This document shows positions 834-60,006 of a stretch of DNA of 64,000 bases, piece by piece. Numbering within the stretch: position 1 is the stretch's first letter; each line of letters begins with the position of its first letter. A program made the position numbers and the translations under genes. This DNA comes from Neisseria sp. oral taxon 014 str. F0314 (lineage in GTDB: Bacteria > Pseudomonadota > Gammaproteobacteria > Burkholderiales > Neisseriaceae), in assembly GCF_005886145.1 (NCBI RefSeq), contig NZ_CP040504.1, positions 434,001-498,000 of the forward strand. Direction: 5' to 3'. The notes under the pieces are model-generated. The model saw only the letters and a list, made by a program, of their open reading frames with translations. It was not told the DNA's origin and did not search any database.

Positions 834-2348
834 ATGACCGCCAACCGCACCCTCATCATCTCCGTCTTCATCGTCGCCAGTTGCGGCCTCGCCTACGAAC
901 TCATCATCGCCGCGCTGGCGAGCTATCTTTTGGGCGACAGCATTTTGCAGTTTTCTTCCGTCATCGGACTTTATCTTTTCTCGATGGGCATAGGCGCGCA
1001 CCTGACCCGCTACATTAAAGACGAAGACGTGTTGCACCGCTTTATCGAAATCGAACTTTTGGTCGGCATCATCGGCGGCATTTCCGCGCTGGCATTATTC
1101 GTCGCCTTCGGTCTTTCCGCCGCCCCGTTCCGCACCCTGCTCTACGCCTTCGTGCTGATTGTCGGCGCGGTCGTCGGCATGGAAATCCCATTGGTGATGC
1201 GCGTGTTAAACCGCAAAGGCGCGGAGTTTAAAGAACTCGTTGCCAAAGTCCTGACCTTCGACTATTTGGGCGCACTCGCCGTTTCCTTGCTCTTCCCGCT
1301 TCTCCTCGCCCCCAAACTCGGCATGGCGCGTTCCGCCCTCTTGTTCGGCATCCTCAACGCCGCCGTCGCCTACCTGACCGCACGCGTCTTCAAAGCCGAA
1401 CTGCCCCGCTACCGCGCCATCCGCCTGCGTGCGCTGATTGTCTTGTCCGTCCTCGCCGCCGCCTTCGCCTACGCCGACCGCATCTCCTTCAAGGCCGAAC
1501 AAAGCTATTTCGGCGACCCCGTCGTCTATCAAAGCCACTCGCCCTACCAGCGGCTCGTCGTTACCCGCTGGAAAGATGACACCCGCCTCTACATCAACGG
1601 CAACCTGCAATTCTCCTCGCGCGACGAAGCCCGTTATCACGAAGCCCTCGTCCTGCCCGCCATGCAGATGGTTCAAAACGCCACCCGCATCCTCATCCTC
1701 GGCGGCGGCGACGGGCTGGCGGCGCGCGAAGTCTTGAAATACCCGCAGGTCAAACACGTTACCCTGGTCGATTTAGACCCCGACATGACCGCCACTTTTA
1801 AAACCTCCGCCACCTTAAGCGCGCTCAACCAAGGCTCGCTGTCCCATCCCAAAATGCACGTCGTCAACGACGATGCCGCCAAATGGCTGGAGGGGTCGTC
1901 TGAAAAATTCGACGTCATCATCATCGACCTGCCCGACCCGTCCAATTTCTCACTGGGCAAACTCTACTCCGTCCCCATGTACCGCCTCGTCGCCCGCCAT
2001 CTTCAGCCGCAGGGCAAAATCGTCGTCCAATCCACTTCGCCCTACTTCGCCCCCAACGCCTACTGGTCGGTCGTCGCCACCCTCGAAGCCGCCGGTCTTT
2101 CCACCGCGCCTTATCACGTTTACGTCCCCTCCTTCGGCGAATGGGGATTTGTGTTGGCAGGCTTCGATAAGCAATTCCCCGTCCCGCAGAAATTCGACGT
2201 TCCCACCCGTTATCTCAACGCCCAAACCGCCGCCGAAATGTTCCGCTTCCCGCCCGACATGGCAAGGCGCAAGGTCAAGCCGAACTATTTGAACAACCAA
2301 ATCCTTGTCAGCTATTTTGAAAGCGACTGGCGCAACGCAATACGCTGA
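834..2348 (+). CDS. Membrane-anchored spermidine synthase-like protein (polyamine aminopropyltransferase fold)
   Basis: About 504 residues. The N-terminal 210 residues are a multi-pass membrane domain. The C-terminal half is a SAM/dcSAM-binding domain with LGGGDGLAAREVLKYP (Gly-rich loop), VDLDPDM (acidic residue after strand 2) and DVIIIDLPDPSN, as in SpeE-like proteins. True polyamine synthesis is unproven because the membrane-fused family has no settled substrate. The frame is open from a TTG at 762, but a DUS lies between 762 and 834 and the hydrophobic N terminus begins right after the ATG at 834, so I chose 834. The gene is divergent from the DUF350 gene and ends in a DUS hairpin. Confidence 0.8.
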   Translation: MTANRTLIISVFIVASCGLAYELIIAALASYLLGDSILQFSSVIGLYLFSMGIGAHLTRYIKDEDVLHRFIEIELLVGIIGGISALALFVAFGLSAAPFRTLLYAFVLIVGAVVGMEIPLVMRVLNRKGAEFKELVAKVLTFDYLGALAVSLLFPLLLAPKLGMARSALLFGILNAAVAYLTARVFKAELPRYRAIRLRALIVLSVLAAAFAYADRISFKAEQSYFGDPVVYQSHSPYQRLVVTRWKDDTRLYINGNLQFSSRDEARYHEALVLPAMQMVQNATRILILGGGDGLAAREVLKYPQVKHVTLVDLDPDMTATFKTSATLSALNQGSLSHPKMHVVNDDAAKWLEGSSEKFDVIIIDLPDPSNFSLGKLYSVPMYRLVARHLQPQGKIVVQSTSPYFAPNAYWSVVATLEAAGLSTAPYHVYVPSFGEWGFVLAGFDKQFPVPQKFDVPTRYLNAQTAAEMFRFPPDMARRKVKPNYLNNQILVSYFESDWRNAIR

Positions 2349-59407: not shown

Positions 59408-59441
59408 TAAGGCCGTCTGAAAATATTTTCAGACGGCCTTA
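59408..59441. terminator. DUS terminator after the bacteriocin-like locus
   Basis: TAAGGCCGTCTGAAAAT and its complement form a perfect 17-bp stem with no unpaired bases between arms. It lies 22 bp after the immunity-like stop on the minus strand and isolates that locus from clpB. Confidence 0.8.
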
Positions 59442-59462: not shown

Positions 59463-59630
59463 TCAACGTTCTATTCGATTAAACCATCGAAGCAGTATCA
59501 CTGTTACGAACATGCTGATAGAAATTTGCCAATAGAACATATCTCTATTTGGAAAAAGATATTTTATTCCTAGCGTTATAACTGTGGTTGATATAGTTAC
59601 ACACAATATCAGAAAACATATTCTAAACAT
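59463..59630 (-). CDS. Small two-helix membrane protein, putative bacteriocin immunity
   Basis: 55 residues, MFRICFLILCVTISTTVITL at the start, then GIKYLFPNRDMFYWQ, a second helix (ISISMFVTVILL) and a basic end RWFNRIER. Two membrane helices joined by a short loop with the charged tail in the cytoplasm is the build of many small bacteriocin immunity proteins. The ATG lies four bases after the stop of the GG-leader peptide gene. AT-rich, unlike the flanks. No known family recognised. Confidence 0.6.
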   Translation of the reverse strand: MFRICFLILCVTISTTVITLGIKYLFPNRDMFYWQISISMFVTVILLRWFNRIER

Positions 59631-59634
59631 ATTT

Positions 59635-59781
59635 TCATTTTGAAAAATACGGAATTCCGACTTTTGTTCCTATTGCACTGGTTGCAAAAGCACCAGCCGC
59701 TGTTGCAGAAGCAGAACGTATGGCATTAGCAACCCGACCGCCTGAAACGTGATTCGTCTCATTTGCGTTTAATACTTGCAT
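59635..59781 (-). CDS. Double-glycine-leader peptide, putative class II bacteriocin/microcin precursor
   Basis: 48 residues. The leader MQVLNANETNHVSGG has Leu at -12, Glu at -8, Val at -4 and Gly-Gly at -2/-1, each a consensus position for cleavage by C39-peptidase ABC exporters. The predicted mature peptide begins RVANAIRSASATAAG, is 33 residues, rich in Ala/Gly with small-residue spacing, cationic and has no Cys. AGGA lies close before the ATG at 59781, and a stop codon is just upstream in frame. No C39 exporter lies in this window. Confidence 0.7.
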   Translation of the reverse strand: MQVLNANETNHVSGGRVANAIRSASATAAGAFATSAIGTKVGIPYFSK

Positions 59782-60006
59782 TATCCTATTTGAGTTTTAA
59801 AAATCGAAAACAACCTTAACTCTTAAGGCATTTTAAGAAAATTTGTACCAACAAAATTCTTAGTTTTTCCGACAACAGTATTGAAATCCAGTTTCATCCT
59901 TTATTTTCTTTTACAAATCTCACCAGCTTGGAGGCATCACAAAAACAGCCCGCGTTCTCATGTATAATCCAAACTCTGATATTTCCCGTAACAGAAAGTC
60001 TTCCCC
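59782..60006. other. AT-rich gap between the bacteriocin-like locus and trpS
   Basis: Holds upstream regions of both. TATAAT at 59963-59968 probably drives trpS. On the minus strand a 24-codon frame (59823-59897, MKLDFNTVVGKTKNFVGTNF) lies upstream of the peptide gene; its ribosome site abuts the ATG, so I do not call it a gene. No clear promoter for the peptide gene is visible. Confidence 0.4.

Follow-up and report, generated by a model that had tools for sequence, protein, structure and literature searches.

A clpB-trpS cassette in Neisseria with an internally shortened, possibly weaponless member of a bacteriocin-like double-glycine peptide family and its predicted immunity partner

Between clpB and trpS in Neisseria sp. 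oral taxon 014 str. F0314, two small genes lie on the minus strand, separated by 4 bases. The initial annotation read them as an antibacterial peptide with a double-glycine (GG) leader, followed by its immunity protein. Does this copy still make such a peptide, or which part of a peptide-immunity system does it keep? The window (the whole stretch of DNA that was analysed, 64,000 nucleotides, G000:C1:434001-498000) belongs to a genome of 2,502,058 bp, and the features of the locus are as follows.

59635..59781, minus strand: peptide ORF, 48 aa, start MQVLNANETNHVSGG; GG-leader peptide of an 89-90-aa Neisseria bacteriocin-like family, with an internal part missing
59737..59781, minus strand: double-glycine leader, 15 codons; L-12, E-8, V-4 and GG present, Thr at -7 (codon 59755-59757)
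59719..59721, minus strand: junction, ATA codon common to both ends of the 129 bp present in relative G021
59638..59736, minus strand: predicted mature part, 33 residues, the leader cut being assumed after GG
59784..59787, minus strand: AGGA, 2 nt ahead of the ATG (counted by eye), a likely Shine-Dalgarno sequence
59463..59630, minus strand: partner ORF, 55 aa, predicted two-helix membrane protein and putative immunity protein; family-invariant K, FP and MFYW present
59408..59441, minus strand: inverted DUS pair, terminator-like hairpin of 15 pairs, downstream of the gene pair

The coordinates and frames given in the initial annotation for the two ORFs were borne out, and so were the DUS terminator 3′ of the pair and the AT-richness of the two genes (GC 0.367 vs 0.55 window-wide). 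The two helices proposed for the 55-aa protein were also recovered by an AlphaFold2 model, at residues 2-25 and 31-54 (mean pLDDT 75.8, pTM 0.44), and the best 19-residue Kyte-Doolittle window of this protein reaches 2.43. The DUS variants were counted at 83 for AGGCCGTCTGAA, 6 for ATGCCGTCTGAA and 7 for AGGTCGTCTGAA, which we take to point to an AG-DUS commensal. In addition, the N-terminus of ClpB in the window (118 aa) has identities of up to 99% among the Neisseria genus genomes. A consensus promoter scan of the clpB-trpS gap gave 3 sites against a shuffle mean of 2.6, none of them upstream of the peptide.

Homologues of the 48-aa peptide were found in 5 of 46 Neisseria genus genomes (G000, which carries the window, G008, G021, G042, and G043), and homologues of the 55-aa protein in the same five, as would be looked for if the two ORFs co-occur. 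G000 has one match only for each gene. At five loci in the other four genomes (G021, G043, G008, and two in G042), the peptide is followed by a directly adjoining two-helix gene. The common distribution, together with this adjacency, makes the pairing more than chance. Thus, judged by sequence, the pair is a real and conserved one of a GG-leader peptide and a membrane-type partner. Furthermore, a profile search placed the peptide family in 6 of 83 family-level genomes and 2 of 12 genera. The genome from the other genus (G082) encodes a 151-aa peptide form with a Sec-type start (by eye), and then a 59-aa protein, for which hhalign gave a match to the immunity profile (E 1.5e-7). A scan of named-species genomes gave two N. 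weixii loci only. The initial annotation had also placed both genes below the usual length limits of annotation. This does not hold for the family: long relatives of 89-90 aa are annotated, and the records of P0005 (N. weixii) and P0003 (N. chenwenguii) carry the name "bacteriocin".

Several further members were seen in these searches. At locus L108, from another Neisseriaceae genus, the peptide core stands behind a Sec-type start and a longer pro-region (1390-1845, plus strand), with a small two-helix-like neighbor (1958-2137, plus strand); the database proteins P0009, P0012, and P0013 have the same core, with a Sec-type start and a longer pro-region. In G008, a subtype II peptide of 97 aa (L111:1474-1767, minus strand) has a different 69-aa membrane-type partner (1261-1470, minus strand), so that partner type may follow peptide type. 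A subtype III GG peptide frame in G021 (L113, 1501-1793) is interrupted and followed by a transposase-like frame. PHROGs gave no match for the immunity gene of the window or for the long peptide of L027, and PDB profile searches with the peptide family or the immunity family gave none at E <= 1. We also considered a mobile-element origin by DNA match and rejected it: among phages and plasmids, no DNA match of the region was found and tblastn of the long peptide gave none.

The peptide of the window is homologous to the 89-90-aa relatives (for example, L027:5668-5937, minus strand) in its leader and its C-terminal segment, and its adjoining two-helix gene is homologous to theirs. However, the peptide gene lacks 43 codons (129 bp) that the long relatives have. 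It consists of family residues 1-20 (the leader plus VANA) joined in frame to residues 64-89 (the last 26), and its alignment to the family profile falls apart into two matches, at profile positions 1-21 and 62-89. The absent segment holds 10 of the 12 invariant positions of an 11-row family alignment, including the conserved glycine-rich core (GYL..GG region). At the 3′ end of the mature part, a TCA stands in register with the stop codon of the relatives and leads to two extra residues (SK). The middle part is present in subtype II (L111), in the other genus (L108), and in P0011-P0013. Since these distant members keep it, the long form was probably the ancestral state.

The peptides were also scored against domain models of class II double-glycine bacteriocins. 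For Pfam PF10439 (Bacteriocin_IIc, cut-off 27.1), the window peptide scores 19.0 bits, and three long relatives score 17.1, 10.5, and 17.3. For NCBIfam TIGR01847 (bacteriocin_sig, cut-off 15.7), the window peptide scores 12.9 bits, and L030 among the three long relatives reaches 17.4; for TIGR03949 (cut-off 21.5), no match is listed for the window peptide, and all three long relatives lie just below the cut-off at 20.5-20.6. A structure model of the long peptide (A1) had low confidence (mean pLDDT 54.2) and was set aside.

The junction suggests how the short form arose. The left side (AATGCCATA) is the same in the window and in G021, and so is the right side (ATACGTTCTGC), with ATA in common. 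Alternatively, the short form could be a recombinant, with the leader of one family member and the C-terminal segment and immunity gene of another, a history compatible with the other readings discussed here. Among the five long relatives, the first 60 nt of the window gene are indeed closest to G042b (46/60; 42 for G021), and the last 26 codons are closest to G021 (59/78; 47 for G042b); the leader is also close to that of P0008 (LNANEMNHVSGG). However, the difference in the leader amounts to 4 nt, and given the ATA at both ends in G021, no second parent is needed to account for the junction. We consider such a recombination improbable.

What does the shortened gene do? Our preferred reading, held tentatively and at just short of an even chance, is that an acquired cassette of a bacteriocin-like GG-peptide family now encodes a peptide that is likely weaponless and a partner that is still a predicted immunity protein. 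The main alternative is that the short peptide works: a distant C39 exporter would cleave it behind GG and release a cationic product of 33 residues, which would inhibit relatives or serve as a signal, with the 55-aa protein as its immunity partner. The mature part does have a net charge of +4, and several short-form alleles indicate that the short form persists, whereas the loss of the conserved core speaks against a working product. On balance, we regard a working short peptide as rather unlikely.

The leader bears on both readings. The initial annotation had it fit at every key position. Compared with the pattern of C39-processed GG leaders (L-12, E-8, hydrophobic -7, V/I/L-4, GG), it fits at L-12, E-8, V-4, and GG and departs at -7. 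All 9 short-form rows have Thr at -7, whereas all 19 distinct long forms counted have a hydrophobic residue there (Ile, Met, or Leu); 4 of these 19 are Sec-type rows without GG. The set of 19 includes the interrupted subtype III frame of G021 and P0010 (leader truncated), takes the leader of P0012 from the alignment, and omits P0003 and P0005, which duplicate L029 and L030, as well as the interrupted subtype II frame of G043 (Leu at -7 by eye). Meanwhile, three exporter-linked leaders of the same genome have Met, Leu, and Leu at -7, having been picked by a pattern that allows L, I, V, M, F, Q, or T there. In the peptidase LahT150, changing Leu-7 to Lys or Asp strongly impaired cleavage, but a V-4T leader was fully processed, and Thr at -7 is not among the variants in the available portion of that paper (PMC6363468). 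In addition, residue +1 is Arg in 7 of 9 short-form rows versus Trp or Phe in the long forms. Both Thr at -7 and Arg at +1 argue against a working short peptide.

On the other side, all 9 short-form rows share one and the same leader, as a working peptide would lead one to expect, with the limit that the database search behind these rows favors sequences having words in common with the query. Five short-form sequences, compared at the protein level, differ at 12 of the 33 mature sites and at 0 of the 15 leader sites (P = 0.005 for a leader free of changes); this count omits P0015, which has the 48 residues of the window peptide and four more at the end, and P0020-P0022. An invariant leader beside a variable mature part fits continued processing and argues against loss of the weapon. 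Furthermore, the deletion is in frame and 6 of the 9 short-form rows are free of insertions and frameshifts, which points the same way. The other three rows (P0020-P0022) carry an insertion, truncation, or frameshift and count against a working peptide.

The translation signals of the peptide gene are also unusual. The spacing from AGGA to ATG is 2 nt in the window and 7-10 nt in the relatives with AGGA, four of five (by eye), and so short a spacing would probably affect translation. Taken together, the loss of 10 of the 12 invariant positions, the Thr at -7, and the 2-nt spacing do not support the claim of the initial annotation, in the form given there, that the window copy makes an antibacterial peptide.

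An exporter for such peptides is nevertheless encoded in the genome. The initial annotation hung on the presence of a C39-peptidase ABC exporter elsewhere in the genome and also proposed a search for further GG-leader peptides; one exporter and three other GG-leader ORFs were found. The single C39 match (E 4.6e-38) lies in a 700-aa protein about 750 kb from the pair, in which the C39, ABC membrane, and ATPase domains are over their cut-offs. It carries AECGLAC, HWDLNHFVVL, and DPAVG, which we take to be active-site motifs and which count in favor of a working peptide and against the loss of the weapon. The protein matches 4ry2 ("ABC-type bacteriocin transporter") over residues 11-691 (E 3.1e-94), and its top PDB rows are P-glycoprotein-type proteins that match the ABC part. 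At this locus (L002, G000:C1:1240001-1259000), which adjoins capsule-transport-like genes, the exporter is accompanied by an HlyD-type membrane-fusion protein, an OEP (outer-membrane efflux) channel, and the three GG-leader ORFs mentioned above. An upstream alignment found no clear common promoter between the peptide and the exporter-linked peptides. We infer that this exporter would serve the window peptide. Across the genus, a C39 match occurs in 5 of 5 pair genomes versus 20 of 46 overall (hypergeometric 0.011, kinship ignored), and one within an open frame of at least 450 aa in 4 of 5 versus 14 of 46 (0.025, kinship ignored). This is weak support for an association of the pair with C39 genes, because kinship is ignored in these counts and the match of N. 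weixii (G042) lies in a 220-aa frame only.

In one comparison, the two genes seem to have changed at different rates. Over the 45 retained codons of the peptide gene, the comparison of the window with G021 gave a pN of 0.197 for the peptide and 0.131 for the partner (ratio 1.51). Of the 14 remaining pairs, 13 gave ratios of 0.41-0.69; the exception was G043-G042a, whose sequences hardly differ, at 1.22. When the residues peculiar to either sequence were counted, the peptide had 6 in the window and 2 in G021, and the immunity protein 2 and 5, respectively. Relative to its nearest relative G021, and to that one only, the immunity-like gene has thus changed less than the peptide gene, which counts in favor of a peptide that has lost its weapon. 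However, the contrast comes from this one pair, which lowers the odds of that reading. Compared with the other four relatives, the ratio for the window is 0.56-0.62, inside the long-form range, and the peptide pN is similar for the window (0.169-0.222) and for G021 (0.131-0.239); that the window peptide is not clearly faster than the G021 peptide here favors a working product.

Other observations on the partner count for our preferred reading. The short peptides fall into 8 database clusters, versus 1 cluster for the immunity protein (from a search with a single immunity candidate). In G008, an immunity-like frame with a shortened N-terminus (L031, 5266-5367, plus strand) has no peptide that we found beside it. 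The partner gene has no clear Shine-Dalgarno site of its own (by eye) and starts 4 bases after the peptide stop, so that translational coupling is likely. Such coupling also tells against our preferred reading, since a weak peptide start would mean that the immunity gene is weakly made too. For the immunity protein, no Pfam or NCBIfam match over cut-off was obtained, and a PDB fold search with its model gave 7 matches, none at E <= 0.001.

A further reading sees in the two genes the decaying remains of an acquired cassette, with no function at present. The signs of decay in the peptide (core loss, Thr at -7, Arg at +1, spacing, and frameshifts) would fit it, as would the shortened immunity-like frame of G008 and the clpB-trpS gap of G043, where GG is immediately followed by an interruption of a related peptide frame. 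However, the immunity frame of the window is open, with a pN of 0.131 and a pS of 0.387 to G021, and its protein is 98% identical to the sole database cluster found (52 contigs). We consider decay of both genes quite improbable.

The initial annotation took the pair for a small acquired cassette, and the site agrees with this. Among the 43 of 46 genus genomes surveyed (G032 and G033 were not fetched, and G034 has no clpB match; the stretches of G010 and G016 end at contig ends), trpS stands beside clpB in 27. In 24 of these, 256-406 bp separate the clpB and trpS matches, with no match to either gene of the pair. The remaining three gaps hold a family peptide and measure 774 bp in the window, 1419 bp in G043, and 2150 bp in G042. 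The extra AT-rich stretch of the window therefore points to the gain of a cassette at this site. In addition, the cassette of G021 adjoins clpB in the same orientation.

The surroundings of the other copies are varied. The gap of G042 also has a transposase-like frame (by eye). The gap of G043 (L097, 329-1288, minus strand) holds the interrupted subtype II GG peptide frame, a different 85-aa predicted membrane-type protein, and a frame resembling the subtype II partner of G008 (by eye). In G021, the cassette and clpB have as direct neighbors genes with PHROG matches of unknown function (L026:1392-4942, minus strand). Copies in G008, G042, and G043 lie in an HlyD/ABC/permease/outer-membrane export-like cluster (by eye), and the three copies at L027, L028, and L029 lie within one such cluster, at two different places.

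A bolder proposal would combine the site and the exporter. Bacteriocin-immunity cassettes without an exporter of their own would be exchanged at the clpB-trpS gap of Neisseria and would rely in trans on a single distant C39 exporter. In the lineage of the window, the cassette would have become a pure shield, its weapon deleted in frame and the stump kept as a translation-coupling leader for the immunity gene. We put this forward as a doubtful extension.

Among known systems, the closest are the 89-90-aa proteins of N. weixii and N. chenwenguii (P0005 and P0003, loci L030 and L029), "bacteriocin" being the annotation of their records. They share with the window the leader type, the VANA start, the C-terminal IRSA...PYF, and the downstream two-helix gene; the window copy differs in lacking the 43 central residues and in having Thr at -7 and Arg at +1. 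GG peptides with a C39-ABC transporter, a fusion protein, and a TolC-like channel have been described in the meningococcus (NMV_0104-0106 and NMV_1948/1949), with a proposed role as bacteriocin or pheromone, and strain 8013 has five candidate GG peptides in the available portion of that report, likened here to the window by description and not by sequence (PMC2784325). In the gonococcal nap island, as its available description has it, small GG Nap peptides are horizontally acquired, with a putative immunity gene, and promote autolysis, with no antibacterial activity (PMC11798529). Compared by that description, the island differs in its flanks (NEIS0794 and NEIS0808) and in having the C39 peptidase NapP and the channel NapF at its ends (PMC11798529). 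The experimentally tested McbC/McbI system of Moraxella catarrhalis resembles the window in that a GG bacteriocin gene is directly followed by a small immunity gene (PMC2761928). Again by description, from part of that paper, McbC (101 aa) and McbI (74 aa) are transcriptionally linked to exporter genes (PMC2761928), unlike the window pair. In S. mitis, "cheaters" with cibC only keep immunity without the cibAB bacteriocin, at 13.0% of 253 genomes in the part of the study available (PMC13059744). Their bacteriocin genes are absent (PMC13059744), whereas a shortened frame remains in the window.

Returning to a cassette that has likely lost its weapon, we suggest the following course of events. 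In the relatives, a C39 exporter whose gene lies elsewhere would cleave the 89-90-aa precursor after GG and export the product, the mature peptide would act on the membrane of related bacteria, and the partner would protect the producer. In the window, an in-frame deletion between the short ATA repeats would have removed the weapon, and the main reason for the peptide ORF to stay open would be the likely coupled translation of the partner. What remains would be an immune but non-producing strain, as described for cibC-only S. mitis. Of the interpretation given in the initial annotation, the conserved pair of GG peptide and membrane partner, the acquired stretch in the gap, and the exporter are supported, and the antibacterial product of the window copy, in the form given there, is not.

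GG peptides with C39 exporters were already known in Neisseria, and long members of the family had been annotated as bacteriocins; the shortened, likely weaponless copy is the new variant. In the open-access PMC literature (subscription papers being outside this scope), no paper was found on the gene pair, the shortened form, or the clpB-trpS site, and the literature searched gave no activity or protection test for any member of the peptide family. As candidates, the long relatives are concrete and come with a partner gene; the shortened copy provides a natural contrast to them. Should the partner protect in the absence of the weapon, competition among Neisseria would include immune non-producers.
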